64,000 bases of DNA from Stentor roeselii (taxonomy: Eukaryota; Ciliophora; Heterotrichea; Heterotrichida; Stentoridae), in contig RSEH01000058.1 in assembly GCA_006503475.1 (NCBI GenBank), positions 117,837 through 181,836 of the forward strand, written 5' to 3'. Numbering within the stretch: the stretch's first letter is position 1; every line of letters begins with the position of its first letter. Below, piece after piece: positions 9,206 to 34,501 of the stretch. The notes beneath the pieces are model-generated. The model worked only from the letters and a program-made list of their open reading frames with translations, had not been told where the DNA came from and did no database searches. The translations under genes were made by a program, and so were the position numbers.

Positions 9206-12200
9206 TTACTTCAAACTACCTAACTTTTGAAGAGATGAAAGTTCCTCATTGTAAAATTTTTTTGTTTGCGATTTGAGTTTTTCGAATGCTTTATCATGTT
9301 CTTTCAATAAAAAATCAAAATAAAAGACTTTTTCCTTAAGATTCAAAACAAGAAATCCAAGTTCACTACTTTCACCCTCAACAACTAAATCAGTATCAAT
9401 AACATGAACATATCTTTTTAAATTTTTTCCACGATTCCAAATCATCAAAGTTTCAATTTCAATGATCATTTCAACGAGTTCCAACAAGTCAGCAACTATT
9501 TGTTTTTTCTGCACTTTCTCAAAAGTATCTGAAATCACTGCAATTAAAAGATTAAGAGTAATGATTGGATTGAGTAAGGTAGCAGTTAAAAGGACAAATG
9601 AGTGAAAATCATCGTTGATAGGGTTATTCCATCCTCCTAAGATAATAAGATACGATTCTGTCAAATAAGGAAAAAATTCTGCCTTTGGATTCCCATCAAA
9701 AGCTCGAAAAACAAGAGAAAAAGTAATCAAAGAGTAAAAAATAATAAACAAAAAAGGAGCGATATCAACAACTACTTGAAATAAAAGATTGACCAGGTAT
9801 CTCGTCGCTTTTATCATTCTAAAGTAAGTCAATCCACGAATCCAACTGATAAATAAGAGAACAGCCAACATGAATCTCTCATTCGTGCTTCGATTAAAAG
9901 AAACATCAAAAAATCCAGACCAGACCAAGACACAATAAATGAACATCATAAAAAACCTGATCAAATCAACAACATTAAAAAAATTCCTGAAGTACTCGAA
10001 AAAGTTAATCACGATAAAAACTGACTCATAAGCAAACAAAACCACATTAAAAAAAAAAGCACTTAACAGAAAAGTCTCATTCCTCGCATTTTCACTCGCA
10101 TTGTAAACAGCTAACAAAATCAAGTAACTAAAAAAAATAACACCCTGGGCCAACATGGCCCATCTTACTTTACCCCACTTGTCTAAAAGCAAAAGACTTA
10201 TAATCTTTGTTTCAAAAACCTTCAAGTTCCTACATTTTTCTAAAGATTTCAAAAACTCAATACTTTTACTTGAACCCATTTCAAGGTACAGTCTAAAAAT
10301 CGTTTTTTTAAAAATCACAGAATTTTGGTCTTCTGATTCTTTCAGTCCAAATCTTGAATGGTCGATGATAAGACCTGAATCTTTTATAATCTTCGGCAGT
10401 TTTATTTCAATTGAAGCGAAGTTCGGCAGGTAAGCCGATGAATCAACGCGAAAGGTTTGATTGTAAAATTTGTGAAGTTTTGAATACCCGCTGAGATTTA
10501 AAGCAATTAAATCGTTTTCAATGATTGAAAACATTAAATGACTGGAAATATCTTCTTGTGGTTTGAATTCGTTTAGACGGGTTATAAGGAGTTTTATGAG
10601 AAGGTTCACACATTCTGAGTAATTCATTTTTAATGCGATTGTTAATGGGGAATACCCTTCGCTTGACTGCATTAATGGAAGGGATTTAGAAGAAGGTGTT
10701 GATGATAACTTGGCAAGGGTGCTCCACATGTTTAGATAAACGAAAACGTGAAGAAGGTTCATGTGAACTGGCTCTAACACCCAAGATGTTGAAGGCAAGG
10801 CAAGGGTCGGCCTTCTTTCGAGAAGTGAATTCAAGTAAAGTTGGAAATCTTCTAATTCGCTGTTGTCTCCTAATAAAGTTAGATTTGAAGGGTTTAGAGG
10901 GTTTTCACATTTTATTAGTTTTGATGGAAATAATAAATAAATATCAGTAGTGTCATGGGATAAGATTATTTTTGATATTGGATGATCTTTTCGTAGGGTT
11001 GTTAACAGCTCAAAAGTTTCTAAAGAATAAATTTCAATAACATTTTCAAAATAAAGCATAAGAGATTCATGACAATTTTCAATAAATCCCAAGTAGCTTT
11101 GCCTAAACCTCACAATAGTAATCAAAGATTCACTATCAACTACTTCAAAAAACGTTGAAGCCAACATAAAAAAATACTGAGAATTTTTAGAAATCGCAAT
11201 TTTCGCATTTCTCAAGTCATCATCATAATGCCTGAAATCAAGTCCTTCACCTTCCACAGTTACTTCAATATTGATCTTGAAATAACAAACCTGTGAAGAC
11301 CTAAGAATGAGAAAATAATCATCATTAGAACAAACCTCAAGACACTCAATATTTTCCTGATTGAGATGAAAGACTTTCAAAACTAAAAACGATTCAAAAC
11401 TGACAACATGCACTTTTGAGTCAGTTCCAATGAAAATGTACTTCAATGATGAAGAAACTTGTAAAATTTGAACATTTTTCTGGACCAAGCCAGTTTTGAC
11501 AGTCATTTTTTCCTTTAAATCAAAAACTTCGATGATGAAATTTGATGTAGTCAAGTGATCAACGAATCCTTTAACAGAGTGACTCGCACATATCAGAAAA
11601 TCCTTTTCAATGTTAACAGCAACCAGCGCATCAGGGTCTTTTGTGAATTCAAAAGGTTCGCAGTCTTTGTTTTGAGTTAAATCCACTACTGCTTTGCCTG
11701 AATCCTTCCAGACAACAGCTTTGATAGAAAGAAAACATCTTGAAAACCAGATATTTTCGACTTGCGTTTTCTCATCAAAAAAGTACTCAATTTCATTTTG
11801 AGGTTCAGGAATTTTCCAGATCTTGATGTTACGGTCATCACTGATACTGACGACTTTCGAATAATCCTTCATGAAGCTGCAAGTTCTGACCCATTCCAAA
11901 TGTCCATTATATTCAATTTCTTTCTTTTTAATTAAAAACCAGATTTTTATATTTGTGTTTTTCGAAGCTGCGATTAAAACTTCTTCATTCGGCGAGATGT
12001 CGATGTCACTTATATTATCTGTCATGCTGAACTGATAGCAAAGGTCCCAAAAGCTTAATCGATAAACAAAGACATTCCCTTTTTCATCCCCTACAGCGAC
12101 GAAAGATTTTTTAGAGACTCGACAAGCACTGATCGGATTTTTGACTTTTATGGTTTTTTCCACTTTTCCTTCAGTCATGTCTTCTAAAAACTGAAAAATA

Positions 12201-12862
12201 TACAAAATTCCTGACTTTCCTCCTGTAAATAAAGAGTGACTTTCAATGTTGAGGTCTAGCGTGCAAAGTGATTTTTCGCTTTGAATCAAAATTTCAGATG
12301 TTTTCAGATTTTTTTGCCACTTTCGTAGTGACCCGTCATCACTGACTGAAAAGAGATGAGAGTCGTCTGGAGATAAGATTAGATCGTTCACAGCTCCTGA
12401 GTGACCTTCAAAGAGATCAAGTTTGGTTAAACTGGATAATTCTAGTTTGAATATAATGCACTCTCCACCTGCAGCGTAAATGTGTTGGTTGTCGTTTGTA
12501 ATTGCGATTGCTAGGATGTCTTTCAGACTTATCGCCTGGTCCATCACAATTTCTTCAGATTTCAAGTCGATAACTGCCAGAAGACCACCTGATTTTTTAC
12601 TGTTGTTATCAGTTCCTTGCTTTTCTGAACGAGAACCGAAGACTATTCTTGAACCGTCTGGAGTCAGCTTTAATGATGTTCCTTGTAATGGGGTTTGAAT
12701 ACTTTTCAGAGCATTTATTTCTAGAAATTTTAAAACTTCTTTCATTGTTTCACGGAAAGTTTTAGTTTTGGAGTCTTTTGAATTACCTCGGTTTTCATTT
12801 GTTTGGATTTGATTTGTTTCGAGTATCTGTGTGTGATCTAAATCGAGTTGCTTTCCAGACAT
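9206..12862 (-). CDS. WD40-TRP-like ion channel 1
   Basis: The protein is 1,218 aa with an intact single frame. WD-type repeats occupy about 55-390 (for example GHSGAVNDLILSPDD...SDDGSLRKW and GHLEWVRTC...SDDRNIKIWKIP), followed by a second, weaker propeller-like region at about 390-690. An ankyrin-like segment lies near 735-770 (EGYSPLTIALKMNYSECVNLLIKLL). A six-TM channel follows at about 898-1110: S1 near WAMLAQGVIFFSYLILLAV, an S4-like RGLTYFRMIKATRYL, a pore loop with ILGGWNNP, and S6 with NPIITLNLLIAVISDTFEKV. That S6 is typical of TRP-like Ion_trans proteins. The C-tail is a coiled coil. It is expected to be a membrane cation channel whose cytoplasmic WD40 head senses ligands or partners. 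The pore has Gly where its two paralogues have Glu. It is head-to-head with the 148-aa gene at 13299. Confidence 0.85.
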   Translation of the reverse strand: MSGKQLDLDHTQILETNQIQTNENRGNSKDSKTKTFRETMKEVLKFLEINALKSIQTPLQGTSLKLTPDGSRIVFGSRSEKQGTDNNSKKSGGLLAVIDLKSEEIVMDQAISLKDILAIAITNDNQHIYAAGGECIIFKLELSSLTKLDLFEGHSGAVNDLILSPDDSHLFSVSDDGSLRKWQKNLKTSEILIQSEKSLCTLDLNIESHSLFTGGKSGILYIFQFLEDMTEGKVEKTIKVKNPISACRVSKKSFVAVGDEKGNVFVYRLSFWDLCYQFSMTDNISDIDISPNEEVLIAASKNTNIKIWFLIKKKEIEYNGHLEWVRTCSFMKDYSKVVSISDDRNIKIWKIPEPQNEIEYFFDEKTQVENIWFSRCFLSIKAVVWKDSGKAVVDLTQNKDCEPFEFTKDPDALVAVNIEKDFLICASHSVKGFVDHLTTSNFIIEVFDLKEKMTVKTGLVQKNVQILQVSSSLKYIFIGTDSKVHVVSFESFLVLKVFHLNQENIECLEVCSNDDYFLILRSSQVCYFKINIEVTVEGEGLDFRHYDDDLRNAKIAISKNSQYFFMLASTFFEVVDSESLITIVRFRQSYLGFIENCHESLMLYFENVIEIYSLETFELLTTLRKDHPISKIILSHDTTDIYLLFPSKLIKCENPLNPSNLTLLGDNSELEDFQLYLNSLLERRPTLALPSTSWVLEPVHMNLLHVFVYLNMWSTLAKLSSTPSSKSLPLMQSSEGYSPLTIALKMNYSECVNLLIKLLITRLNEFKPQEDISSHLMFSIIENDLIALNLSGYSKLHKFYNQTFRVDSSAYLPNFASIEIKLPKIIKDSGLIIDHSRFGLKESEDQNSVIFKKTIFRLYLEMGSSKSIEFLKSLEKCRNLKVFETKIISLLLLDKWGKVRWAMLAQGVIFFSYLILLAVYNASENARNETFLLSAFFFNVVLFAYESVFIVINFFEYFRNFFNVVDLIRFFMMFIYCVLVWSGFFDVSFNRSTNERFMLAVLLFISWIRGLTYFRMIKATRYLVNLLFQVVVDIAPFLFIIFYSLITFSLVFRAFDGNPKAEFFPYLTESYLIILGGWNNPINDDFHSFVLLTATLLNPIITLNLLIAVISDTFEKVQKKQIVADLLELVEMIIEIETLMIWNRGKNLKRYVHVIDTDLVVEGESSELGFLVLNLKEKVFYFDFLLKEHDKAFEKLKSQTKKFYNEELSSLQKLGSLK

Positions 12863-13298
12863 TTTTAAAGGAAGATGATTTATGAATGTGAATTAACTTG
12901 GAATTTAATAGAGTTGAAGAGGTTTTTGGGTTTAAATAGATTTTGGACTTGATTTTAATAGTTTTTGAAATACTTTGCAGATAAATAAATTCTTGCTTAT
13001 ATATTTTGGGTTTTTAGATAATATTTTATTAATTTTCAATTTAGCTCGTTATCAGTGAAGAATATTCTCAGCTTTTAATCTTAAATTTTTTATTTCATTC
13101 AAAATATCTGAAATTATGAAAAACTTTTAAATCATAGGAGCTAAAAATTTCAAATAAATCAATTTTATTATTTCAACCATCTTGAGTCTCAACTATAATT
13201 TCAAGTTACTCATCTAGATTTAAAAATTAACCTTTTTCCTACAAGAATCAGTCATAATTCTTAAGATAATAAATAAATTCTTATCAATTCATTCCAAT
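12863..13298. promoter_or_regulatory. Divergent intergenic region between channel 1 and the 148-aa gene
   Basis: A 436-bp gap with both genes reading outward, so it must contain both promoters. The half next to the channel is C-poor on the plus strand, hence G-poor on the channel's sense strand. The last 60 bp before 13299 are repeated upstream of the second copy (about 21080-21140), including an AGAATCAGTCAT element and AATAAATTCTTAT. Confidence 0.5.
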
Positions 13299-13745
13299 AT
13301 GAATCGTTTGATGGAAAAATCCTATGAACGACTTTCTAACTTCAACATCACAAAAGTCACTTACCACCCAAAACGACCGAATTCATGTGAAAAACCAAGA
13401 AACAAGACACATGTTTTTAGAGTTGATCAGAATGCCTTTTGTGAAGTCCCCGTCATTGACTATTCAAGTACCTTTCAAATTAAGCGAAATTCAGTAGAAA
13501 AAATCACAAATTCTATAAAAAACCTGAAAAAAATCAAGTTTTTTGCCTGCCCTGGATCAAAAAAGACGCCAATTCAGAAGTCCGCTTATAAACTACCCAG
13601 CCGAAACAATACGTCAATCTTGAAAAAATCAATCATAAAGCAACCGAGCTTAGATAAGATAACAGAAAAAGATATAGTAAAAGTCTTGAAAAAGAGCTTG
13701 GCTAGAGTCTCAATAAAGGATATATTTAGAAATAATCATTTTTAG
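13299..13745 (+). CDS. 148-aa basic protein, copy 1
   Basis: Basic, Lys/Arg- and Asn-rich protein of 148 aa with no recognised domain. It has two short hydrophobic stretches but no TM segment or signal peptide. A second copy at 21141-21587 is nearly identical. Between the copies the amino-acid changes are confined to five positions in the first 21 residues plus one R/K change near the C-terminus. The remaining nucleotide differences I could see are silent (for example CTG/CCG-type third-position changes in Pro, Leu, Ser and Arg codons). This pattern indicates a functional protein under selection. Each copy is head-to-head with a WD40-TRP channel gene, which suggests a functional link; that is an inference. 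Confidence 0.8.
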   Translation: MNRLMEKSYERLSNFNITKVTYHPKRPNSCEKPRNKTHVFRVDQNAFCEVPVIDYSSTFQIKRNSVEKITNSIKNLKKIKFFACPGSKKTPIQKSAYKLPSRNNTSILKKSIIKQPSLDKITEKDIVKVLKKSLARVSIKDIFRNNHF

Positions 13746-14274
13746 TTTAATAACTTTCTCTAAGTATAAGGGATCTAATAGATTTTTTGAAGTTGGGTAA
13801 CTTGAAAGACTTAAATTAGGCTGAGTTTGAAGGGATTAATCATCAAGTCAATCCAAAATCAAGAGATTTTAGCTCTATCAGAAGAGAAACATAAAGATAT
13901 CAAATTAAAATATTTTTAAACACGGAATTTAAACATTTATATTCTTGAAATACTGAACAACATTATAAAAATCCAAATAACCAATTTTAATTCTCAAAAA
14001 ATTAATTATAATCAATAACTTTACTATTATGTGAATCGATTTCGTTATTCTTTGAAATCCTATAAAACTAAATCATTCTTATAAACTATTTCAAGTTGGT
14101 AAGTGAAATAATATTCTCCTCATATAATTTATTCTCTTTTTGATAATCCACTGATAATATCTATGACTTAAGGTTCCTATAATTATCATCAATCACTGCA
14201 TCATTATTAAAACATGAAAGAAAATTTTTCTATTTTTATATATATTCAAAATCATTAAAGTTTCCACTTAAATC
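13746..14274. other. Spacer; first 80 bp shared with the second 148-aa gene copy
   Basis: The first 80 or so bases (TTTAATA.CTTTCT...GTTGGGTAACTTGAA) match the 3' flank of the second copy at 21588-21665, so they belong to the duplicated unit. The rest is AT-rich with nothing recognised. Confidence 0.5.
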
Positions 14275-15800
14275 AAATCTCAACGAGTTCCCTTGAATCT
14301 GAAATGACTTCAACTTTTTAAATTCAGAGAAAGTATCATAAATAAATAAAAAAATTAAAGTGTTCATTGGGTTCAGTAAAGAAGTAAAAAAGGATTAACG
14401 AGAAGAAGTTTTCCTGAATATTGTCCGAATTTCCTATAACCATATACGAGTCTATCTTGATACAAAAATAAAATGCCTGAAAGTAAGCGCGAGTGCGACA
14501 ATCTTGTATAAAATGATAAAAATAAAGGAAAAAATCAATCAAAACTTTAAACAACAGATTAAAAAGTAGCTTGTTGCTTTAACTACTCGAAAGAAAGTAA
14601 GACCCTAGTCCAGCTGATGAAATAAAAAGAGTCAGGATCAATCTTTCATTTGATGTTATTCTTTTAATATCAAATGCAGTAAAATGAATAAAAATTACTG
14701 AGCGAAAATAAGAGCAAGTCATTTAGAATGAAGCCAAGTTTGAACATGATTTCTTATTCTTTTAATTACCTTGAAGATAGAAACAGTCGTCAATCGAAAA
14801 TTTTTAAACCGTTCCGATTAAAGTAAATTTTCCTGAATCAGAAATTCATAGAACTTTGATTTTCTTTAAAATTTTATTTTTTCAAATCAATCACATCAAG
14901 AATAAAGCTCTCTTGATTCTGTCCCCATAATTAATTACATCCTTTTCATACATGGCTTATTCATAAAGCTATTCATGCTTAGGTCAAATACTTGTTATCG
15001 CGCTTTGGTCATGAACATCAATAAATCGTCAATGATTCCTTATTTCCCATTCAAAGTAGCCTCAGAATTTCCTGAGTCTTGATTAATAATTACCTTTAAA
15101 GATTGACAGGCATTAGAAAACCAGAGGTATTCAAATAAAAGCTCGTGATGTTTAAAATAATCAAATTCAGTTCCAAGTTCAGAAATTTTCAGATTTTTAT
15201 GCTTTTGACGTTATTAATGCTGACATTTTTAAGTTTTCTTTTAAAAGTGATTTTTTTTTACTAAGGCGCATGGCCGTTGTATTTAATTTCCTATTTTTCA
15301 GAAGATGTCAAATTTTATATTCGTGTTTTTCGATCCTGGTATTAAAATCTCTTCATTTAATTAAGTATCGATGTCTTTGATTGATAATTCATTGAAAATG
15401 CAAAGAAAAGATCATAATTAGGAAATTTCAATATTTTTGTATTTTACATTTTATCACATGCAGTAATGAAAGAGCATTTTTTAGATATTTTGTTTGATGA
15501 GGATAGTTCTTTTATATATTAAGAGTAGTCTAGGTTAGTTTAAATCTCCAAGTCGACATTAAACTTCAAAATTTTTCCAAGCACTTATATCAAAACAATA
15601 TAATTCCCTGCCGATGCTTTAATAATTGAACTAGAAAGGCTTCTATCAATTTTCATATTATCAGAGTCTAGTAATTACTTACAAAAAATATTAGAGACTC
15701 GTCAGATGATAATCATATTCAATTTCCATCTCTTTTATGCTTAGTTTTATATCTAGTCAATAGAAAGACTTCATGGTGTATATAAGAAAGTTGGCTTATC
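14275..15800 (-). pseudogene. Decayed WD40-TRP channel (pseudogene 1)
   Basis: Read on the minus strand, this stretch aligns piecewise and in order with the intact channel at 9206-12862, but it is full of frameshifts, stops and deletions. Landmarks: 14281 CAACGAGTTCC matches the post-S6 region near 9475. 14336-14554 gives a short frame (FKVLIDFFLYFYHFIQD...) that corresponds to S5, the pore and S6. 15190-15330 matches the WD repeat with NIKIW (15315 TATTCGTGTTTTTCG against 11950). 15690 TTAGAGACTCGTCAG matches 12111. The ankyrin part and much of the second propeller have been deleted. The 5' end near 15800 is only approximate. Confidence 0.75.
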
Positions 15801-16141
15801 ATCATTTAGAATTTATAAATATTTTTTCAATTCAATCAAAGATTTAAGTCAATTTTACAAGTACTATGAAAGATCATCTAGCCAACTTCTAACATAATCC
15901 TTATTTTCCAAACTGATTACAATATCACATCAACTCTCTTAAATTTGATAAAAATTTCCTTGATCTCCAAAATTCCTAATTAAATTAAAGTCTTCAAACC
16001 CTTAATCAATTCAATATTTTAATATAAAAAAAATATTTCTGCCTAATCTCATCACTTCCTTCCAATGATCCCAAAATCCCTCATTCAACAATTCCAACTT
16101 TATCAACTTACTAAACGTAGATCATATCTCAACCTTTATAT
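15801..16141. promoter_or_regulatory. 5' flank of channel 2
   Basis: About 340 bp ahead of the channel 2 start. From about 15890 the plus strand is strongly G-poor and rich in C, T and A (for example CTCATCACTTCCTTCCAATG). It ends CCTTTATAT directly before the ATG. This G-poor sense strand recurs upstream of other genes in the window. Confidence 0.4.
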
Positions 16142-19100
16142 ATGTCGGGAAAAAGTGTCGATATCACAAGAAGCATTTACCTCGAAACCGAATACCTTCA
16201 ATCCACAGAGGAAATAATCCAGAGCTATTCCCACGGAGGTGAAAAGTTCAAAGATCAAATGAAAGAAGTCGTAACATTCTTAAAATCCAATTCCCTTAAA
16301 AACATTCAAACTCCACTTAAAGGCACATGTCTTCAAATAACGAAAGATCAAACAAAAGCTGTTTTCAGCACTCGTGCACTGATTAAAGAACCTGAAAACA
16401 AAGCTCAAGTCAGTGGCGCTCGATTGGCAGTTATCGACTTATTATCAGAAGAAGTAGTTCTTGACAAGACTGTCTGCCAGAAGGACATTTGGACCATTTC
16501 TCTCTCAAATGATGACCGACATGTCTATGCGGGTGGTTCAGACTGGGTCATCTTCAAGTTTGACTTGAGTGACTTCAGCAAAGTTGAATGTTTTGAAGGC
16601 CATTTTGGAGATGTGAATGGAATTTCCATGACTCTTGATGGGTCTTTCATGTTTTCTATTAGTGATGACGGGACTCTTAGGAAGTGGGGTCTTGATAAAA
16701 GGTCTGATAATTTGATTCTTTTTCAGACATCTTTGAGACTTATGGCTCTTGACTTAAGTTTTAACAATAGTTTCTTGGCTACTGGGGGAAAGACTGGAAT
16801 TTTGTTTATATATGAAATTTTTGGAGATTTGAAACAGGGTAGAATTGAAAAAACGTTGGATGTTAATAATCCTGTTAGTGCTTGCAAAATCTCTAGAAAT
16901 TGTAATTTTGTAGCAGTTGGAAATGAAAATGGAGGTGTTAAAGTCTTTAGATTTGCTGGATGGGTTTTGATTTATGAGTTTTTAATGAGTGATCAAATTA
17001 CGGATATTGATATTTCTTTTCATGAAGACATACTAATAGCAGGATCAAAAAACACAAACATTAAGATATGGTTCCTAATAAAAAATAAAGAAATCAACTA
17101 TAACGGCCACTCAGATCGGGTTCAAAGATGCACTTTCATGAAAGACAACTCAAAGGTGATCAGCATCAGCGACGATAAAAACATAAAAATCTGGAAAATT
17201 CCAGACCCTGAAACTGAATTCGAATATTTCAGCAAAAATGGAATCGAGTTCGAAAATCTCTGGTTTTCAGCCCAAACTAAAAACATAAACGGGATCGTAT
17301 TCGAGAATTCCCAGCTCAAAGTAATCAGCATTGACTCAAACGGTGAAATTTTCAAATCTTTTGCATTTTCCGATGATCTCGAGGCAAAACTTACTGTCGA
17401 CTTTACTCGTGATTTGATTTTATGTGCAAGTTCTGCTTCGGACATAGAGATCTCTGAATTAAAAGGAAAGCCTGACCTTAGAAGTTTTATTCTTGAACTT
17501 ACAGATGTTTATTTAGGACGCAAAGTAAAAAAATGTTTAATTCAGAAAAATATAGAATCTTTACATATTCCTTTTTCTTTAAAATTTGTGATTTTAGGAG
17601 AATTTTTAAGGTTGTATCTTGTCGATTTTGAGACTTTTACATTTTCTTCAGTGGTTTATATTAATCATCAAGATGTAAAGAAAATCATTACAACTAAGGA
17701 AAGCGATTGTTTGTTTATTCTAGGGTCTAATCAAATGACATATTTTAATATCAACTTTTCTGATGATAGTCCTTTAATTGTGGAAACTGATTATAAAATA
17801 TATGAAAATGATGTTGATGATTCTTCTTTGTTTATATCGAAAAATTCGCAGTTCTTGTTTTTGTTAAACTCGAAATTCTTTGAAATAATTCACTGTAAAT
17901 CATTTCAGACAATTAGCAAGATACCTGGTAATTATTCAGGGTTTACTCAGAACATCAACAAGACTTTTTTCCTTTACTCACAAAATCTGATAAAAATCTA
18001 CTCAATGGAAACATTCGAGCACTTATCAACTATAAGAAAAGAATACATAATCTCAAATATCTTCCTAAGCAAAGACTTTAATTTAATGTTTATCAGCACT
18101 TCAAATAAAATAATGAAATCTGAAAATCCTTTAAAAACTTCAAAGTTGACATTAATAGGAGATTACACTCGTTTAGAACAATTTCAACTTTGCATTAATT
18201 CTTTCTTTGACAGGGAACAAGAAGCTGATCTTTCAGAGACTTTATGGCTTATTGAGCCTATTCATATTAACTTGCTTCATATTTTTGCTTATTTGAACAA
18301 ATGGCAGCTGATAATTGAATCAACTTATTCAAAGAAAGAAGAAACCTTGTCTTTTATCACGTCATCTGGAGGGTTTTCTCCTTTATCTATCGCATTGAAA
18401 ATGGGCTTCATCGAATGTGTTGACTCGATCATTAAACTTCTGATAAAGAAATTAAAGGAGGGTAAATCTCAAAATAATATCATTACTCAGTTCATGTTCA
18501 AGACTATAGAAAATGATGTTGTTGATTTGAACTTAGGAGGAAATGATAGTCTTCATAAACTTTACAGTTATGTTTATGAAACTGATCGATCGGCTTATTT
18601 GCCTAACTTTTTACCTTTGAATATTAAGTTGCCTTTGATTATTAAGGAAAATGGATTGATGATTGATGCCAAACAATTTGGAATTGGGGAGTATCAAGAT
18701 AGTATTCATATGAATTCTGTTGTGTTTAAAAAAACAATTTTAAGATTATCACTTGAAATGGGTTCTAGTAAAAGTTTAGAATTTTTGAAATCGTTATCTA
18801 AGTGCGATAATGTCAAGATCTTTGAAACAAAAATAATCAGTCTCATATTAAGAGAAAAATGGTTAAGAGCCAGGTGGTTTATATTCTCTCAAGCATGCCT
18901 TTATTTTACGTACTTAGTTTTATTATCATTTTATTCTTCAAATGAAGCTTCTAGGACAGGTTCAGTTTTACTTTGTGCATTCATCGCTAGTAAAGTTCTT
19001 TATTTATATGAATTGATTTTCATTGCCATTAATTTTATAAATTACTTCAAAGACTTTTGGAATATCATTGATACTTTGAGGTTTCTGTTCATGCTAATCT

Positions 19101-19843
19101 ACTGTCTCCTAGTTTGGACTAATAACTTCGATATATCAACAAATGATGATAAACGAGAAAGATCGATGCTAGCAATAGTTTTATTTATAAGTTGGGTAAG
19201 AGGATTGACTTATTTCAGAATTGTGAAAGTAACAAGGTATTTAGTAAACCTTTTATTCCAGGTGTTAATCGAAATCACTCCTTTTATGCTGATTATTTTT
19301 TACTCGTTTTTCACCTACGCCTTCGCATTTAGAGCCTTTTCAGATGACTCCAAAAAAGATTTTTTTCCTTTTTTAACAAAATCGTACATGATTATAATCG
19401 GAGAATGGGAAAATCCTTCAGTTCCTAATTTCTATTCTTTTGTATTCTTAAGTGCTACCTTGTTAAACCCGATCATTTCTTTCAATTTGTTGATCGCTTT
19501 AATTTATAAAACTTTTCTGGGTGTTAAGGAAAATCAAGTAGTTGCTGATTTGAAAGGACTTCTTGAAATGATCACAGAAATCGAAACTTTGATGGTTTGG
19601 AACAGGGAAAATAATAAAAAGAAGTATTTCCATGTTTTGTTAAAAGAAGTTGAATCACATAACTCGTCATTTCAGGTAAACTTGAAGATTAAAAACGTAA
19701 GATCGAAGGTAATGGAAATAAAAAATGAACTAGATGAATATGATAAAAATTTTGAAAACTTTAAGGAAAATATACAAAAGTATTCAAAAAAACAAAAAAA
19801 AATGGTGAAAAACTTTAAGCATAAACTACTCGAAATTAATTAA
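16142..19843 (+). CDS. WD40-TRP-like ion channel 2
   Basis: The protein is 1,233 aa in a single open frame. The architecture matches channel 1. WD-type repeats cover about 60-390 (GHFGDVNGISMTLDG...SDDGTLRKW; GHSDRVQRCTFMKDN...SDDKNIKIWKIP), then a second WD-like region, then an ankyrin-like GGFSPLSIALKMGFIECVDSIIKLL near 742. A six-TM domain lies at about 906-1125 with an S4-like RGLTYFRIVKVTRYL, a pore loop with IIIGEWENP, and S6 with NPIISFNLLIALIYKTF. A charged coiled coil closes the protein. Expected to be a plasma- or endomembrane cation channel. In S6 the usual AI(I/V)S is ALIY. The gene is more similar to channel 3 than to channel 1 in the pore. Pseudogene 2 at 20.2-21.0 kb appears closest to this gene. 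Confidence 0.85.
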   Translation: MSGKSVDITRSIYLETEYLQSTEEIIQSYSHGGEKFKDQMKEVVTFLKSNSLKNIQTPLKGTCLQITKDQTKAVFSTRALIKEPENKAQVSGARLAVIDLLSEEVVLDKTVCQKDIWTISLSNDDRHVYAGGSDWVIFKFDLSDFSKVECFEGHFGDVNGISMTLDGSFMFSISDDGTLRKWGLDKRSDNLILFQTSLRLMALDLSFNNSFLATGGKTGILFIYEIFGDLKQGRIEKTLDVNNPVSACKISRNCNFVAVGNENGGVKVFRFAGWVLIYEFLMSDQITDIDISFHEDILIAGSKNTNIKIWFLIKNKEINYNGHSDRVQRCTFMKDNSKVISISDDKNIKIWKIPDPETEFEYFSKNGIEFENLWFSAQTKNINGIVFENSQLKVISIDSNGEIFKSFAFSDDLEAKLTVDFTRDLILCASSASDIEISELKGKPDLRSFILELTDVYLGRKVKKCLIQKNIESLHIPFSLKFVILGEFLRLYLVDFETFTFSSVVYINHQDVKKIITTKESDCLFILGSNQMTYFNINFSDDSPLIVETDYKIYENDVDDSSLFISKNSQFLFLLNSKFFEIIHCKSFQTISKIPGNYSGFTQNINKTFFLYSQNLIKIYSMETFEHLSTIRKEYIISNIFLSKDFNLMFISTSNKIMKSENPLKTSKLTLIGDYTRLEQFQLCINSFFDREQEADLSETLWLIEPIHINLLHIFAYLNKWQLIIESTYSKKEETLSFITSSGGFSPLSIALKMGFIECVDSIIKLLIKKLKEGKSQNNIITQFMFKTIENDVVDLNLGGNDSLHKLYSYVYETDRSAYLPNFLPLNIKLPLIIKENGLMIDAKQFGIGEYQDSIHMNSVVFKKTILRLSLEMGSSKSLEFLKSLSKCDNVKIFETKIISLILREKWLRARWFIFSQACLYFTYLVLLSFYSSNEASRTGSVLLCAFIASKVLYLYELIFIAINFINYFKDFWNIIDTLRFLFMLIYCLLVWTNNFDISTNDDKRERSMLAIVLFISWVRGLTYFRIVKVTRYLVNLLFQVLIEITPFMLIIFYSFFTYAFAFRAFSDDSKKDFFPFLTKSYMIIIGEWENPSVPNFYSFVFLSATLLNPIISFNLLIALIYKTFLGVKENQVVADLKGLLEMITEIETLMVWNRENNKKKYFHVLLKEVESHNSSFQVNLKIKNVRSKVMEIKNELDEYDKNFENFKENIQKYSKKQKKMVKNFKHKLLEIN

Positions 19844-20199: not shown

Positions 20200-21043
20200 T
20201 CTTTGAAGCCAGTAGATTTGATTCTTAGTAAGATAAATGGATTAATGCTTAATTCATATTCAAGCCAAATATTAATAATTTATAGTCATATTCATAGACT
20301 GATAAGTCTTTAACCTGGTTAATTTATAAAAATGTTGCAGAAAATTTTTTAATATCATACTTTGAGCATCATCACAGAAGTAACATTCCAAGATGCTCCA
20401 GTCAGCCTGGTGAAATAAACAAAATGAAAAAAAATCATAAAAAAAAATTCCAATCTTTCTACCTGTGCCCAAAAATTATTATTGATATTAATTCAAGATG
20501 TGAGCCTCAAAAGTATCCGAAAAAGAATCAAACTATCAAAGTTTTATTAAGACCCCTCTTGTAAAACTCTGGTCATCACCAATAGAAAACATGAAGAATC
20601 CACCAAAATTTATGAAATTCCGTTGAGATCCCAAAATGGCCTTTAAAACATTCAACTTTACTGAAGTCTGTCAAGCCAAACTCGAAGATGACCAAGTCTA
20701 AACTTTCCAAGACGGTCGCTCTTGAGAAAACTGTTCGAATTCCCTTTTACAAATGATTCTATCAATAATTAATCATTTGAGATAAGATTGATAACTTCAT
20801 TCACTAACTTGAGCTTTTTTAGCTTCATGAATCACCTGAGCTGATTTTAAAACTCTCTGATCTTTTGTTATTTGAAGGCTTGTGGCTTTGAGAGAATTTT
20901 GAATTTTTTCAGAGAAAAGGATATTAGGAATGCGAAGAATTTTTGTAAGATAGTTGAAAATCTGCCATCGATGGAATATGTGTGGCTTATTTCCTCAGTG
21001 GCTTCGAGGTAAGTAGTCTAAAGGTAGATACTCTTTCTGACAT
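20200..21043 (-). pseudogene. 5' fragment of a WD40-TRP channel (pseudogene 2)
   Basis: On the minus strand the original ATG is still visible at 21043 (ATGTCAGAAAGAGTATC, against ATGTCGGGAAAAAGTGTCG in channel 2). The sequence then follows channel 2 through the N-terminal region (20850 CTTCAAATAACAAAAGATCA) and the first WD repeats. 20690 GTCATCTTCGAGTTTGGCTT aligns with 16540. 20590 TTCATGTTTTCTATTGGTGATG aligns with 16650. 20465 GGCACAGGTAGAAAGATTGG aligns with 16780. Similarity fades near 20200, so only about the first 800 bp remain, with frameshifts and stops. It is head-to-head with the second 148-aa gene, 97 bp away, which shows that the channel/148-aa pair was duplicated as a unit. Confidence 0.8.
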
Positions 21044-21140
21044 CAAAATTTCCTGAGATGTATTAAAAATTGATCATTCTTCTTCAAGAATCAGTCATCA
21101 TTCTTGAGTTCATAAATAAATTCTTATAAATTCATCCAAT

Positions 21141-22640: not shown

Positions 22641-22652
22641 TACCGTTGTTCA

Positions 22653-22940: not shown

Positions 22941-23620
22941 AATTCTTGTCGAACTACATCATAAATCTCAGAGAAAAGTTCTAAATTTTTAACTCATTTG
23001 CTTCTTTATAAGCAAATCGATGCTGCCAACTTACTCAATAAGGTCTAAGAATTTGCAGACTTTGACCTACCTGAAAACAAGCAAAGTTCAGAAAAGTAGT
23101 CAAAAACTACCTGGTCAATGTCTTTGATCTTCACTGAGTTTACTTCAAATCACTTTAAAATAGTCCTCAGAGCTTAGATTCTAACTGCTTTTTGAGAGTA
23201 TGTTTTGAATTTTTAGTACTTTTTGCTTTCGACTACATAGAGTGGGACTTTTACTTTTATTATTGAATTTTAGGTGAGGAATCGAACTTTGGGTTATAAA
23301 CTGTAAGTAAAATAATTTGAATTTTTCATCAAATGAAGAATGAAGGAGTTGATTTTAATTCAAAGTTAAAAAAATAAGTTTAAGTAGCTTTTTATTGGGT
23401 TTTCGAGATGTTTTTAATAATAAACTACTTTTTGAAAGCTCTTTTTAGCTCTTTAATTTTAATATCATCAGAAATTTGTCAATTTTTTCTGATTTTCAGG
23501 TGTCGGTCAAGCAGCTTTGAAAGTGAAAGGTTTGAATGAACTGGATATGTTTAACTTTTAACAGAGATATAATTTTAAAGTATAATATATATTTTGGATC
23601 TAATAAATGCAATTACTAAA

Positions 23621-25462
23621 ATGCAAGCAACTATTTCTACAAACGCCGAAAATTTTCAAAAAATGCTAAGTTTTTTATCTATTCAAAGGGAAAAGATTAA
23701 ACAAAAGTTTGGGGAATTATATGAGAACTTTTTATCAAATATTGAGAGTTTAGATTTGAAATCCAAAAAAATTACTGAAACTAATACAGTTAATATCTTG
23801 CAGAATTATGATCCAGTTATCATTCTTATATTGAATCAATTCCTCATGCTTAATAGATTAGTTACTTTATTTCAAATTTTTCAAAAGAATATACACCATA
23901 TGAGCCAGATGATTTTGCAAGTAAATATTAGTTATAAAAATATTTTTATACATGATGATCAAAGCAGAATTATATCAAGGGCACTTATCAATAAAGAAGT
24001 TAGAAATCATCTTGAATTTAGTGATGATTTTATGAAAAAAAATCTCAATACAAGGAGTGATTTTAATAAACCTTCCCCTGAACCTATTTATCTACATAAA
24101 GGGACCAACACTCATCGTTCAATGAATGATTTTTCTAGATATCAAGTTGTCCATCAACATAGTATTTCATTGGCTGGAGTGTCAGCAAATATTGAGCAAG
24201 CATCTGCCCGACCTCATGACGGAATTCTAATATTTTCACCACGCTGTGCAGGCTCGGTTATTAAAGTAAATACTAAATCAGCAGGGGATAAAGAGGCTTC
24301 ATCTAAACTTAATTTAAGTGAACCAGAAAGAAATATAAATGAAATAGATCCTTATAATAAAACTAAGAATTCATTTAAATCCCATTCCCCTTCAAAGGTG
24401 CAAGGCTCACCAGATTCGAAGAATATACTAAATAAACTGGCTTCCTCAGAAAAACCAATAAGTTTAAAAAAATCAAAAGAAAAAAACGCAGCTGATGAAA
24501 ATTCAATTCTTAAATCAAAAAATGATCTTAAAGACCCTTTCAAATTTAAAAAAAAAATCAAAAAATCTGAAAATTTAAGGAGCAAATCATTAGAATTTTT
24601 AGAATCAAAAGCAATCTCATTGAAATTATCTAAAGTTAAAACAATTAAAAATCATTTTAAAACACTTCCTTCAATAAAATATTCAGATCTTTCTCTTATC
24701 CCTTTATCGAAACCACCTCACCATGATAGTTATGCTAAAAATAATTATCTCGAAGAAAAAGGATTTCGAATCAAACCTAAAACTAAATTGAAAAAAAAAT
24801 CTATTAAAGAGAACAAGATGCTAATAGAACCTATCACAATCTTTACTCCTAAGACTTTACAAGAAAATGTTAAAATCGAATCTTTTGATATTTCAAAAAA
24901 ATCACCCATCAGTGATTATCATTTGTCGAAATTTCCTAAACCTTCTAGTAATTTACTTAATCAGTGTTATGAATTTGATAAAGATGCTCTGATGTCAATG
25001 TTTAGCAAATTAAATCATATCAAAGAAATTGATATGAAAAAAATTAATTTTTCCAAAATTGTAAAAAATTTAAGTCAAATACTTGATTCTCCTATCAAAG
25101 GTTTATGGAATATCAACATAATTCAAATGAAAAAAATTATCGAATCAAAAGCTTCTAATAAACTTAACAAAATTGTACTTAAATATATTGAAAAAGTTTT
25201 AATAGAAATGTATTTACACGAGTTTTACAGTTCTTTGAAAGAACTCATTATTTTTTCGAGATACTTAGATTCTATCGTTGTTTACTTCAGTTTTATTTAT
25301 ATTGATTATTGCTCTGAAAAAAGCTCAGTAAAAAAAAATCTTATTCGAAAGCTGATATCATTCTTGCAAGGCGGAGAAAATAAAGCACCGAATTTGATGA
25401 AATCTAAAAATTTTTCAGTTTATAATTATTTTAAAGAAATACTTTTTAATGTTTTCTTATAA
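23621..25462 (+). CDS. Lys/Ser-rich coiled-coil protein of unknown function, copy A
   Basis: The protein is 613 aa from the ATG at 23621. The frame is open a few codons further upstream, but without an ATG. The N-terminal 50-60 residues are heptad-like, the middle is Ser/Lys-rich and disordered (SFKSHSPSKVQGS), and the C-terminal 180 residues are hydrophobic-helical (for example MSMFSKLNHIKEIDMKKINFSKIV) and the best conserved part. The paralogue at 52967-55153 is about 115 residues longer. Copy A lacks about 70 residues after ASARPHDG, where small indels change the frame locally, and it lacks one of two tandem segments. No known domain was recognised. Both copies remain open over more than 600 codons, so both are probably expressed proteins. 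Confidence 0.65.
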   Translation: MQATISTNAENFQKMLSFLSIQREKIKQKFGELYENFLSNIESLDLKSKKITETNTVNILQNYDPVIILILNQFLMLNRLVTLFQIFQKNIHHMSQMILQVNISYKNIFIHDDQSRIISRALINKEVRNHLEFSDDFMKKNLNTRSDFNKPSPEPIYLHKGTNTHRSMNDFSRYQVVHQHSISLAGVSANIEQASARPHDGILIFSPRCAGSVIKVNTKSAGDKEASSKLNLSEPERNINEIDPYNKTKNSFKSHSPSKVQGSPDSKNILNKLASSEKPISLKKSKEKNAADENSILKSKNDLKDPFKFKKKIKKSENLRSKSLEFLESKAISLKLSKVKTIKNHFKTLPSIKYSDLSLIPLSKPPHHDSYAKNNYLEEKGFRIKPKTKLKKKSIKENKMLIEPITIFTPKTLQENVKIESFDISKKSPISDYHLSKFPKPSSNLLNQCYEFDKDALMSMFSKLNHIKEIDMKKINFSKIVKNLSQILDSPIKGLWNINIIQMKKIIESKASNKLNKIVLKYIEKVLIEMYLHEFYSSLKELIIFSRYLDSIVVYFSFIYIDYCSEKSSVKKNLIRKLISFLQGGENKAPNLMKSKNFSVYNYFKEILFNVFL

Positions 25463-25959
25463 ATTGAAAAGAATTTTCGTAGAAAGAGCATGAATCTATG
25501 TGCTTTTTTAGACATTTTACCTGAACCAAAACATTGAATGAATAAGTATTAGTCTAACTTGACCTTTTTTTAACAAAATAGCTCATAATATATATTATAT
25601 AAAATTCATTTACTAATGGAAAGTTTAAAATTTTAAACCTTCATACTTTAAATGATCTACAAAATCCTCTAAAATTAAATGATATGTAAATTCATTGATT
25701 TAAGATTATTGAGAATTTCTTCCAAGATTTTTATAATATTGATTGGGATTATTTATGTTAGAATTTTATATCTTAGTAAACTCTGAATCGACTTAAAGTA
25801 TAGTTTAAAGAGGTTATTCCAATTTTTAACAGGATATTATCAGATATTGTGAATTTCTTAAGTTATTATCAATCCTTTTAAATAAATCCAGAACATTGAA
25901 GATTTTCCATAGTCCGAAGACATTGAACTAAAAATGTAAAGAATTGGGTAAGGAATTAA

Positions 25960-26900
25960 GCTAAGCTTACCAAAACTCTATAAAACTTATTTTTCTACTC
26001 AGTTAAAGGATTTTAGTTCAAAGTCATGTAAGTTATCAACTAAATTTTATTTTGTATCGCCAAGGCACCTGATGGTTTGAAACTGTTGAAACGGTGATCA
26101 AAGTAACGACTATCACAACTTTTCCTGCTTTAGTTAATTCTTTTCCTTTGCTAATTTTTTCAAGTTTTTTTCTGAAGTTTTCCTGAAAAATTAAATGAAT
26201 TTTAATGAACTTCTTTGAACTTTGAAGAGATTCATTCAGAATTCTAAGGTTAGTTTTGGAATTATAATAAATACCTTCTGATAGTCAATTATAAATTTGA
26301 TTGATCCCTGTAAAAGTGAAGATATTTTCAGGGATTTCTAATGAAAAGTATCATCATGATTTCAGGTTTTTTCCTGAAATTTAGTTTTAAGTTTCCTTTA
26401 CTGATAGAAAGACTTGCCATTAATTATTTTTTCAAGAGTAGTGAAAACCTTAAAACCTTCAAAACATTTGAACTTATCTCTTATATGAATTTTCCACACA
26501 TTCTTCGCAATCTTTTCGAATCTTGCACATTTTCTAAAATGCGACAGGGCTTAAAAACTTTTGATGTTTATGTTTTTCTGAGTAGACCTTTGAGTAGGTT
26601 CCTGGAGTTACTTCATTAGACTGAAAGATTACATGTTTGATAATAAGTCTGGTTCAACAAGACTTGCACGTTCCTTCACACTTTGAAAGGTTTTTCTATT
26701 TAAAAAATAATCATTTTGAAAGAGGAGGCTATCGAAATTGCTTTTAAGAAGAGGAGATTTGCACTTTACAGTTCAAGCTGAGATATGTTTATCCAAGTTT
26801 CACATGTCTCTTGATAGTTCATGAATTTGAGCTTATCCCATGCAAAGGACTTAGACGATTTGATATTTTTTAAATATTGTGTCATATATTACAATTAATT
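25960..26900 (-). pseudogene. Decayed 3' part of a Cys-rich multi-TM surface protein
   Basis: On the minus strand this stretch follows the gene at 44820-49523 in order. 26860 ATGGGATAAGCTCAAATTC and 26660 TGTGAAGGAACGTGCAAGTC match the last Cys repeats (about 47650-47810). 26520 CAAGATTCGAAAAGATTGCGAAGAATGTG matches 47960. 26290 AATTTATAATTGACTATC matches 48215. 26130 carries KELTKAGKVVIVV, against KEMTKAGKAALIA at the first TM region. 26010 ends near ATAACTTACATG against 48490. Many stops and frameshifts are present. The plus-strand frame at 26341-26619 is an antisense shadow of this relic. Confidence 0.8.
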
Positions 26901-27628
26901 TCAATCAATCATTAATTTTTCTATTCATTTAAGTTTACTCATAATATATATGTAATATTTTATTAAAATATTCAAACTTTCAAATACACAGGTTCATTTA
27001 AAAGAGTTTGAATTGTAAAGATCGGCTCAATATCAAAGTTACTAAAGAACACAGAAAATATAAAAAACTTTCACTTATTTGTCCTTATTTCTGTAACTTT
27101 ACTTAACTTATGATTACTTTAAATCTTTATATTCAATTATTCTTTGAAATTATTTAGATATTAATGAACTAGTTGAAATGTTGATTGAAATGGTAATTTA
27201 AATTATTTAAAGCAGATAGAAAAATGTAAATCTTTTTATTGTTTTTGATGAGGATCTTTAGATTGAGTTTAATACTAGAGAGTTTGAGGCTCTTATAATC
27301 AACCTAAAATCAAAAGATATCTTCAATAGGTGATGATAATCGCAGCATAAGAAGACATTTAACAAGTTCAAGACATATTGAAGTAGTTTCTCTCACTGAA
27401 TTATTATAGACTGTAGTGAAATACACACTAAACATCTGATAATCCTTAGAAAAGAATGTTATTCTTCTTAATCTAAATTCTCTTCATAAATCTAAAATAT
27501 TTCAATTCTCTCTGTTTTCCAATAAATTAATCAAAAATCTCTAAAAAACCAAAAATCTCTAAAAAATCTAAATTTTTTAAAAGAAAAATCACCCGTCGCT
27601 AAATCATCAACGTTCATAAAACTTATAA
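26901..27628. other. Spacer and 5' flank of channel 3
   Basis: AT-rich, with no frame or relic recognised. From about 27430 the plus strand becomes very G-poor, with repeated AAAAATCTCTAAAAAA units just before the start region. It ends AAAACTTATAA immediately before the ATG. Confidence 0.4.
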
Positions 27629-30600
27629 ATGCAAGTAAAGCCAGTCGACATTACTAAAAGTTTCAACTCCGACAACAACCTTCATTCATCCGATAAAAAA
27701 CTTCCAAATCAAACCAACCAAAACCTAATCGAAACGCTAAAAGAAGTCTGCAGTTTTCTAGAGTCAAATTCTCTAAAAAACATTGAAACTCCTTTAAAAG
27801 GCACTTGTCTCCAAATAACAAAAGACCAGACAAGAGCAGTCTTCAGTTCTCGAGCGCTGAACAAAGACTCAGACCTGGAGTCCGAAGGAGCAAGACTGGC
27901 AGTTATCGACTTGATGTCTGAAGAAGTGGTTTTGGACAGAACAGTATGCAAAAAAGACATCCTTACAATCGCTTTGTCCAGTGATGACTTGTTTATCTTT
28001 GCAGGAGGCTCGGACTTTGATATATTCAAAGTTGACCTGTTTGACCTTAGAAAAGTAGAGACTTTCAAGGGACATACTGGGAATGTTAAAGAAATATGCG
28101 TGTCTTCGGATGGTGCGATCTTGTTTTCAGCTAGTGAGGATGGAACTCTTAGGATGTGGGAACTTGATTCAAGGTTGCAGAGTTTTGAAAGCTTGGTACT
28201 TGTTTTATCGACTCTTGAGTTGAGCACTTTGGATCTTGGAGTTGGCGATAACTGTCTTATCACAGGAGGTAATTCCGGAGTTTTGTACTTTTACGAATTT
28301 TTCAGCAATTCTCGCCAAGGCAAAGTCGAAAAAACTCTAGACCTTCAAAATGCCATCACTGCTTGTAAGATCTCAGTAAACTACTCTTATGTAATAACAG
28401 GAGATCAATTCGGCAATGTAAAAGTCTTCAAATTCGCCAGTTGGGACTTGCACTACGAGTTTTCAATGACTGACCAAATCACAGACCTTGACATTTCCTT
28501 AAATGAAGACGTTTTAATCGCAGGGTCGAAAAATACAAACATAAAGATTTGGTTTCTGATAAAAAAGAAAGAAATAAATTACAACGGACACTCAGAATGT
28601 GTTCAAAGATGCACTTTTATGAAAGACAATTCAAGAGTTGTCAGTATCAGTGATGATAAAAATATAAAGATCTGGAAAATTCCAGAACCTGAAGTCGAAT
28701 TCGAGTATTTCAGACAACAAGGAATACAATTTGAGCAGATCTGGTTTACAAGTATCGGAAATGTCATTCATGGAGTGATTTTTGAAAATTCTCAGTTAAA
28801 AGTAGTTAGTTTGGACTCGAATGGCGTGATTTTCAAAAGTTTTAGCTTTTCTGAAGACCCTGAGGCGAAGGTGTTTATTGATTATTCTCGTAATTTGATA
28901 TTGAGTTCTAGTTCTGCAACTTCTGAGCAAGTAAGCAAATCTAAAGGAAAACCTGACCTGCAAAGTTTTTTAATTGAGTTGACTGATGTCAACGTAGGAG
29001 AAAAAGTGAAGTCATTTTTAATCCAGAAAAACTTTCAGACACTATTTTTAACACCCTGTTTAAAATTTATCATCCTTGGAGATTATTTTCGTTTGTACCT
29101 TGTTGACTTTGAAAGCTTGAAAATCACGAAAACAGTTTTTTTAAACCATCAAGATGTTTTGAAAATAGTCGTGAATCGAGGAAGTGAGTTGATGTTCATC
29201 CTTGGAATTAATCAACTCACTTATTTGAAAACTGACTTTCTCTCAAACCCTGCAACAATAACAGAAATTGATGATAAATTATTTGAAGAAGACATCGAAA
29301 ATTCTTCATTATTTATCTCGAAAAATTCGCGGTTCTTGTTTATTTTAGCTCTAAAGTTCTGTGAAATAATTCACTGTAAGTCTTTTCAAACAATTTCAAA
29401 ACTCCCTGGGCATTACAATGGTTTTTTCCAAAACATCAACAAGACCTTTTTTCTTTACTCACAAAACTTTCTCAAGATTTACTCAATGGAGACCTTTGAG
29501 CACTTGACAACAATAAGAAAAGACTTCATAATTTCCAGTATCTTCTTAAGTAATGACTTCAGTCAAATGTTCATAAACACATCAGACAGAATAATTAAAT
29601 CAGAAAACCCTTTAAAGACCTCAAAGTTAACTCTTGTTGGAGATTACACTCAACTAGAAAAGTTCCAACTTTGCATAAACTCTTTATTTGACCGCGAATT
29701 AGAAACTGACATTTCACAGACCTTATGGCTCATAGAGCCAGTTCACGTGAACCTTTTACATGTTTTCGCATATTTGAACAAACCGAAGCTGATAATCGAT
29801 TCGATTTATTCAGAAGTTGAAACAACTTCTTTCATCAACTCACGAGAAGGTTATTCCGCATTGGCAGTAGCACTGAAGATGAACTTTATCGACTGTGTGG
29901 ACTCAATTGTGAAACTTTTAATAAAAAAACTGAAAAATACTGAGTCAAATAATATCATTGCCCAGTTTATGTTTAAGACAATAGAAAATGATATAAACTT
30001 GTTGAACCTTTTAAGTTATTCTAAACTTCACAAGTTGTATAGTCAGATCTTCACAGTTGACAATTCAACTTACTTGCCTAATTATTTACCTTCTCATGTC
30101 AAGTTGCCTCTAATGGTGAAAGAAAATGAATTGTTTATTGATACTAAAGAATTCGGACTAGAGGACTTTGACGACTTCAGTCATATGAATTCAGTCGTGT
30201 TTAAAAAGACTATCATGCGACTTAGTCTTGAGTTGGGCTCAACAAAAAGTTTGGAATTTCTTAAGTCTTTATCAAAATGTAAAAATGTGAAAGTCTTTGA
30301 AACACAAATTATTTCAGTTATTTTGAAAGATAAATGGAAAAAAGTCAGATGGGTCATGTTTGCTCAAGCTGGGCTTTACTTTGGGTACCTTCTTTTTTTA
30401 GCTCTTTATAACTCGAATGAGGTTTCAAGGACTAGGTCTTTTCTAATCGGTGCTTTTTTAGTGAATATTGTGCTTTATGTTTATGAGATTGTTTTTATGG
30501 TGATTGACTTTGTTAATTATTTCAAGGATTTCTGGAATATTGTAGACACTCTGAGGTTTTTCGTGATGTTCAGTTATAGTATCATGGTCTGGTCAGAGTA

Positions 30601-31327
30601 TTTCGATATTTCAATAAATAAAAACAAAAAGGAAAGGTACATGCTGGGTTTTCTTATTTTCATCAGCTGGGTGAGAGGAGTGACTTACTTCCGAATGGCA
30701 AAAGCAACGAGGTACTTGACTAATCTTTTATTTCAGGTAGTTCTTGATATCACTCCTTTTCTACTCGTCATTTTTTACTCTTTCATTACTTACTCACTTG
30801 CCTTTAGAGCCTTTTCAAGTAACCCAAATAAAGATTTTTTCCCTTATCTGACTGAATCTTACATGATCATCATCGGCGAATGGGAAAATCCTATTGAGCT
30901 TAATTTTTACTCTTTTGTCTTCTTCACTGCAACACTGCTGAACCCGATCATTACTCTCAATCTTTTAATTGCTATTATTTCGAAAACTTTTCTTGGAGTG
31001 AAGGAAAATCAGGTCGTTGCTGACTCACAAGAACTTGTTGAAATGATCATTGAAATAGAAACTTTAATGCTTTGGAATAGAAAAAATAATCAAAAGAAAT
31101 ACTTGCACTTAATGCAGAAAGAAATTGAGAATGAAAATGAATCTGAAGTAATTAATTGGAAGATTAGGAAGATTAGGGCCAAGATTAATGGAATTAATTT
31201 AGAGATTATTCAACATGATAAGGATTTTGAAGGCTTTAAAAGGAATCTTGATGGAAATTCTAAGAGGATGATGAATGCTTTTCAAGGGAGACGAGCATCA
31301 CTAAGATCATTAGTTAACATCAAATAA
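27629..31327 (+). CDS. WD40-TRP-like ion channel 3
   Basis: The protein is 1,232 aa, intact. WD-type repeats cover about 55-390 (GHTGNVKEICVSSDG...SEDGTLRMWELD; GHSECVQRCTFMKDN...SDDKNIKIWKIP), with a second WD-like region to about 690. An ankyrin-like REGYSALAVALKMNFIDCVDSIVKLL lies near 740. The six-TM channel at about 905-1120 has an S4-like RGVTYFRMAKATRYL, a pore with IIIGEWENP, and S6 with NPIITLNLLIAIISKTF. The tail is basic and helical. The WD and pore regions are close to channel 2. Like its paralogues it should be a cation channel with a large cytoplasmic propeller; ligand and gating are unknown. The start at 27629 fits the paralogues' N-termini (VDITKS against VDITRS in channel 2). 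Confidence 0.85.
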   Translation: MQVKPVDITKSFNSDNNLHSSDKKLPNQTNQNLIETLKEVCSFLESNSLKNIETPLKGTCLQITKDQTRAVFSSRALNKDSDLESEGARLAVIDLMSEEVVLDRTVCKKDILTIALSSDDLFIFAGGSDFDIFKVDLFDLRKVETFKGHTGNVKEICVSSDGAILFSASEDGTLRMWELDSRLQSFESLVLVLSTLELSTLDLGVGDNCLITGGNSGVLYFYEFFSNSRQGKVEKTLDLQNAITACKISVNYSYVITGDQFGNVKVFKFASWDLHYEFSMTDQITDLDISLNEDVLIAGSKNTNIKIWFLIKKKEINYNGHSECVQRCTFMKDNSRVVSISDDKNIKIWKIPEPEVEFEYFRQQGIQFEQIWFTSIGNVIHGVIFENSQLKVVSLDSNGVIFKSFSFSEDPEAKVFIDYSRNLILSSSSATSEQVSKSKGKPDLQSFLIELTDVNVGEKVKSFLIQKNFQTLFLTPCLKFIILGDYFRLYLVDFESLKITKTVFLNHQDVLKIVVNRGSELMFILGINQLTYLKTDFLSNPATITEIDDKLFEEDIENSSLFISKNSRFLFILALKFCEIIHCKSFQTISKLPGHYNGFFQNINKTFFLYSQNFLKIYSMETFEHLTTIRKDFIISSIFLSNDFSQMFINTSDRIIKSENPLKTSKLTLVGDYTQLEKFQLCINSLFDRELETDISQTLWLIEPVHVNLLHVFAYLNKPKLIIDSIYSEVETTSFINSREGYSALAVALKMNFIDCVDSIVKLLIKKLKNTESNNIIAQFMFKTIENDINLLNLLSYSKLHKLYSQIFTVDNSTYLPNYLPSHVKLPLMVKENELFIDTKEFGLEDFDDFSHMNSVVFKKTIMRLSLELGSTKSLEFLKSLSKCKNVKVFETQIISVILKDKWKKVRWVMFAQAGLYFGYLLFLALYNSNEVSRTRSFLIGAFLVNIVLYVYEIVFMVIDFVNYFKDFWNIVDTLRFFVMFSYSIMVWSEYFDISINKNKKERYMLGFLIFISWVRGVTYFRMAKATRYLTNLLFQVVLDITPFLLVIFYSFITYSLAFRAFSSNPNKDFFPYLTESYMIIIGEWENPIELNFYSFVFFTATLLNPIITLNLLIAIISKTFLGVKENQVVADSQELVEMIIEIETLMLWNRKNNQKKYLHLMQKEIENENESEVINWKIRKIRAKINGINLEIIQHDKDFEGFKRNLDGNSKRMMNAFQGRRASLRSLVNIK

Positions 31328-33004: not shown

Positions 33005-33022
33005 TGTTTTCATAGGGGATAA

Positions 33023-34402: not shown

Positions 34403-34501
34403 TTAATTTTGTTGGTTTTGTTATGATCTAGATATCATAAGGGAATAATAATCTTAGAAAAATCTTTTTTTTTTGTAATCTTCTAGATTATATTCTTCAA
34501 T

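Follow-up and report, generated by a model that had tools for sequence, protein, structure and literature searches.

The window, a stretch of 64,000 nucleotides from contig RSEH01000058.1 of Stentor roeselii, contains three intact genes, here called W1, W2, and W3, each of which is one stop-free frame (Table 1). The preliminary description of this DNA had reported three intact WD40-ankyrin-channel genes of about 1,220-1,233 aa, and the sizes found here bear this out. In all three proteins, WD40 and many propeller families matched at around residues 100-355 in Pfam, and a single Ion_trans stretch was observed at around residues 908-1131. The Ion_trans scores were 37.1, 34.4, and 26.6 bits for W1, W2, and W3 (E 4.2e-6 for W3), all above the Pfam curated cut-off of 25. 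Pfam, profile, and model together support the earlier proposal that WD40 head, ankyrin-like segment, and TRP-like pore of six helices are parts of one chain.

Table 1. Genes, protein parts, and decayed pieces in the window (positions counted from its first nucleotide).
Feature	Position	Strand	Description
W1, intact gene	9206..12862	-	1218 aa; WD40 head, ankyrin-like part, six-helix channel; in the window clade
W2, intact gene	16142..19843	+	1233 aa; layout as W1
W3, intact gene	27629..31327	+	1232 aa; member chosen for the structure model
W1 Ion_trans match	9500..10141	-	residues 908-1121; E 2.6e-9
W2 Ion_trans match	18893..19534	+	residues 918-1131; E 1.7e-8
W3 propeller region	27776..29638	+	residues 50-670; 57 strands in the model
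W3 ankyrin-like helical hairpins	29753..29938	+	around residues 709-770; profile match and model
W3 linker strands and pre-S1 helices	30050..30301	+	residues 808-891; model; order as in TRPV
W3 S1-S6 with pore helix	30305..31006	+	residues 893-1126; Pfam, profile, model, Foldseek
W3 putative filter G-E-W	30875..30883	+	residues 1083-1085; putative role, from position
W3 helix after S6, at the place of the TRP helix	31010..31066	+	residues 1128-1146; model
W3 long C-terminal helix	31139..31225	+	residues 1171-1199; model; possible coiled coil
Relic 1	14211..15500	-	match to around residues 247-401 and 992-1161; frame breaks, middle lost
Relic 2	20557..21044	-	match to around residues 7-181 only
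Relic 3	27157..27375	+	match to residues 1125-1198 of W1, C-terminal part

The three genes belong to a large family. A search of the genome (44.4 Mb, 522 contigs) with W3 returned 38 loci, and the union with three channel-half queries reached 98, which is a lower bound because only the best candidates were scored in each search. The family thus has at least 98 loci in its own genome; their frames measure 1047-2275 aa, and in all of them the matched part is free of stops. W1 to W3 form one clade (support 100/100) whose neighbours are loci on contigs C7 and C339, and the three are therefore considered to be locally duplicated. The local amplification proposed earlier holds for the window, but it is only a part of this genome-wide expansion.

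For detailed comparison, 38 of the 98 loci were taken whole. Each is a single frame from stop to stop (1107-1256 aa) and each shows a WD40 match; the stops are TAA in 24, TAG in 13, and TGA in one. Among the other 60 loci, two head queries gave an upstream WD40 match for 18, in frames equal in length, the pairing being made by equal frame length, strand, and contig order and not by sequence letters. The WD40 head is thus found in the same frame at 56 of the 98 loci; for the remaining 42, no head was among the matches listed, with 74 of about 1,000 candidates scored per head query. Twelve of the 98 loci have frames over 2000 aa, around 900 residues above most (e.g., C186:205097, C30:12393, and C514:150826). 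Bacterial and archaeal genomes searched with W3 yielded 34 pattern-matching stretches with one relative and no channel fusion. This sole prokaryote relative, on a Gemmataceae contig (L039), is a WD40-only match (query residues 99-356). In viral contigs, the five closest members as queries yielded 147 pattern-matching stretches and no relatives.

AlphaFold models were made as monomers, with an input alignment of 38 paralogues from one genome. Their confidence is lowest near the pore: ten-residue means were 57-83 at residues 1031 to 1110 of the full W3 model, and values of 64-66 were seen at residues 391-410 of the channel-half model. The models predict two folds, the head and the pore. The 57 strands of the W3 head are, in our reading, two predicted WD40 propellers. 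In Foldseek, the full model matched tandem-propeller proteins such as Pwp2, Utp21, Apaf-1, and COPI subunits, which share the two propellers per chain; these proteins are not channels.

A genuine ankyrin part is present, although it is short. The profile of the C-terminal halves of the 38 members matched ankyrin chains at positions 20-72 only (E 1.8e-12), two Pfam ankyrin models matched one member each, and the W3 model has two to three ankyrin-like hairpins after WD40.

For the C-terminus, the preliminary description had named the lack of a predicted channel fold as what would speak against it; a channel fold is predicted by Pfam, profile, and model. Among the 38 channel halves, Ion_trans is absent from four, the trp model of Pfam matches 21 and is missing in 17, W3 included, and PKD_channel matches 11. 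Profile, Foldseek, and model comparison all indicate that the pore domain is homologous to that of TRP channels. The best structural matches of the channel half in Foldseek were TRPV channels, with rmsd of 7-15 A and TM-scores near 0.5. In the channel-half model, a post-S6 helix (439-457) is predicted to run on from S6 (403-437), as the TRP helix does in TRP channels.

The invariant residues of the membrane part include the S4 arginine, in the motif SWxRG (38 of 38, with the next glycine in at least 90%), and an S6 leucine. A glycine after the pore helix is seen in 31 of the 38 members, and the pore loop is incomplete in a few. The position after the filter glycine is occupied by Asp in 13, Glu in 5, Asn in 7, Gly in 5, Ser in 5, and Ala in one, with a gap in two; that is, it is acidic in 18 of the 36 aligned members and Asn, Gly, Ser, or Ala in the other 18. 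An acidic ring of this kind would fit a Ca2+-permeable pore in around half of the members, and the remaining members may differ in selectivity.

TRPV channels have six ankyrin repeats and no WD40, and their order is ankyrin, linker strands, pre-S1 helices, S1-S6, TRP helix, and C-terminal strand. The likeness of the Stentor proteins to TRPV1-6 and Nanchung/Inactive lies in the order of parts from the ankyrin through the C-terminal strand, and the linker, membrane part, and C-terminal strand appear in the model to share the fold. The Stentor protein has instead two to three hairpins after a double propeller, and the identity is 10-16% in the rows compared. True membership in TRPV is rejected, as the ankyrin part is too short and WD40 stands before the ankyrin hairpins. 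From TRPM8 and the TRPM2 chanzyme, the Stentor family differs by its WD40 head, and none of the Pfam matches to its C-terminal halves is TRPM-specific. The membrane part also matched Polycystin-2 and PKD2L1 by profile, in line with the PKD_channel matches. TRPP channels have a large extracellular domain in the S1-S2 loop. This loop has around six residues in the W3 model, and a polycystin identity is rejected for the lack of such a domain. The membrane part, the only part compared in this case, matched an algal (protist) TRP channel with a profile E of 1.8e-11 (structure 6pw4, which we take to be Chlamydomonas TRP1). A four-domain voltage-gated channel is rejected, as each window protein has one Ion_trans stretch, not four.

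TRP channels and tandem WD40 propellers are each well known. In the literature searched, which misses most subscription papers, no account of a fusion of the two, or of its scale, was among the entries listed. WD40 and TRP appear as separate genes in the part of one article available to us (PMC5068960). A WD40 double propeller and a TRP-type channel in one chain is an unusual design.

The decayed pieces between the genes were detected by tblastn of the intact proteins against the gaps. The best scores of relics 1 to 3 were 43.5, 42.0, and 38.5 bits; in the controls, 104 shuffled or reversed queries per gap, no score exceeded 28.1, 26.9, and 26.2 bits, respectively. Relic 1 retains head and channel parts, and by our reckoning around half of the expected length is gone. 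Copies in the window thus also die. Of the two dead members reported earlier, the decay is confirmed, but the number is not: three pieces are seen, and they derive from three genes or fewer.

The intact copies, on the other hand, are old and constrained, because synonymous sites among the three are near saturation (pS 0.58-0.90) and pN/pS is 0.24-0.62. The fast turnover suggested in the preliminary description is therefore not supported. The highest pN/pS in the trio is in the second propeller, between W1 and both W2 and W3 (0.57-0.62). Only one close pair was observed among the 38 members, L033 and L053, which are 90-92% identical and represent two genes or two haplotypes; their dS is 0.28-0.38 and their pN/pS 0.08-0.22 over five parts. 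Of the parts compared, the membrane part shows the highest conservation, with pN/pS of 0.12-0.39 in six pairs, and mean identity among the 38 members is 20% for heads and 33% for channels. Judged by these comparisons, both halves evolve under constraint. That the head changes faster and the pore is steadier suggests that members differ mainly in the partners of the head.

Changes are heaviest at third positions across the propeller-ankyrin junction (residues 651-750), too, in all three pairs tested, with small counts for L033/L053. The distances between heads and between channels are correlated in the 38 members (Spearman 0.50; best of 2000 permutations 0.21), and in 28 of them head and channel share their nearest neighbour. 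Thus, the fusion has largely been inherited as one unit. The different neighbours in the other 10 could reflect noise or exchange.

Short introns whose removal would rejoin long frames were scanned for, and there were three candidates of 15 nt: GTAAGTCAAAAATAG, GTAATTATTATTAAG, and GTAAGTGATATTTAG. GT-AG counts at other lengths from 10 to 30 were 0 to 5, and three alone is unremarkable. The remarkable features are the clean control at 15 nt (three control patterns with counts of 0, 0, and 0) and the GTAA...AG form common to the three putative introns. By eye, all three have A at position 10. The standard genetic code fits, with TAA, TAG, and TGA all used as stops in the 38 members. As excerpts of the sources state, introns of Stentor coeruleus are 15-16 nt long, and in those of 15 nt the branch-point A mostly occupies position 10 (PMC9505925); Blepharisma also has introns this short, but its UGA is read as Trp (PMC9942806). 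The putative introns and the standard code fit a Stentor-like heterotrich, which is the likely source; three introns are support for this and not proof. At 44820-49523 (+), two putative 15-nt introns (45280 and 48870) would join three frames, and no Pfam family matches the middle one, of 1156 aa.

It is probable, taking these observations as a whole, that the genes encode a large, old, lineage-expanded group of TRP-superfamily channels with a WD40 head, in which the propellers are coupled to the gate. The most serious alternative is that the channels work on internal membranes, such as the contractile vacuole, alveoli, or a calcium store, and are not surface receptors. TRP-superfamily relatives work in both plasma and internal membranes, no sequence feature was found that separates the two, and there is no direct counter-evidence; even so, this location is rather doubtful.

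It is less likely still that many members are channel-shaped scaffolds or sensors that do not conduct, in which the WD40 head works and the membrane part is an anchor. Tandem propellers are common scaffolds and were the matches of the full model in Foldseek, and both the variable filter residue and the incomplete pore loops point in this direction. However, conservation is strongest in the membrane part among the parts compared, its S4 arginine and S6 leucine are invariant, and its pN/pS is low in the six pairs.

A recent local array that turns over fast is disfavoured and seems very improbable. Three intact copies of one clade with three relic pieces nearby give that impression, but the near-saturated synonymous sites and the pN/pS of the trio, as well as the presence of just one close pair among the 38, argue against it. 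An annotation artefact, in which a WD40 gene and a channel gene share a frame by chance or are split at the transcript level by tiny introns or internal starts, is hardly credible: apparent 15-nt introns could sit in frame unseen, but the single frame is kept in all 38 whole members, a head match lies upstream in an equal-length frame at 18 of the 60 other loci, third-position bias holds across the junction, and the distances of heads correlate with those of channels. Chance read-through of two genes is rejected on the unbroken frames and the biased change across the junction.

For WD40-headed TRP channels, the following working can be proposed. The pore is probably a cation pore built from the S1-S6 segments of four subunits. 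On the cytosolic side, each chain would have a short ankyrin-linker unit of TRPV-like layout, with the tandem double propeller sitting where animal TRPV has further ankyrin repeats. The most likely role of the propellers is to tether the channel to partners in the cytosol or cortex, or else to sense a soluble partner. Binding or pull may then pass through the ankyrin part, the linker, and the TRP-like helix to the S6 gate, and the open gate would let in cations, perhaps Ca2+. Such a family would be a new way to couple a cytosolic platform to a TRP gate.

We know of no genes behind the receptor currents of Stentor. A 1988 paper, known from its title in the reference list of PMC7935092, reportedly concerns habituation by modification of a mechanoreceptor channel. 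The parts of the publications available to us describe currents activated by mechanical stimuli, in Stentor as in other ciliates (PMC3681921), contraction of the whole Stentor body driven by action potentials (PMC7935092), and, for Paramecium, a lack of homologues of TRP channels other than Pkd2 (PMC6627415). Nothing in this analysis ties the WD40-TRP family to these currents, and a sensory role is inference only; Stentor, a giant unicellular ciliate, may owe some of its sensory channels to the family of the three window genes. Concrete candidates for knock-down are the TRP-like loci, 98 or more in number, of which 56 show a WD40 head. It would be a bold and very improbable extension that this excitable ciliate swapped most of the TRP ankyrin antenna for a double WD40 propeller in around 100 genes, whose variable heads on more constant pores serve as a combinatorial receptor set including the mechanoreceptor channel that is modified in habituation.

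The genome also contains 16 frames of 1416-1859 aa with several strong Ion_trans matches each, of the four-domain voltage-gated type, whose matched part is apparently intron-free. They lie on contigs C296, C55, C100, C91, C97, C46, C131, C80, C502 (two), C27, C83, C512, C249, C522, and C175.

Several other genes were observed in the window. A separate WD40 protein of 666 aa at 58505-60505 (+) shows weak similarity to the channel heads, and no Ion_trans is among its matches listed (25 of 28 families). The 613-aa frame between W2 and W3, at 23621-25462 (+), encodes a different protein with no Pfam family and no match to the channel genes; its paralogue at 52967-55153 (-) has 728 aa and is 60% identical. 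Directly after W3, at 31640-35800 (+), a kinase, an armadillo-repeat protein, and another kinase form a close array. Two FHA-domain genes lie side by side at 4439-6001 and 6015-7556 (+), encoding 520 and 513 aa with FHA near the C-terminus, and are perhaps tandem copies.
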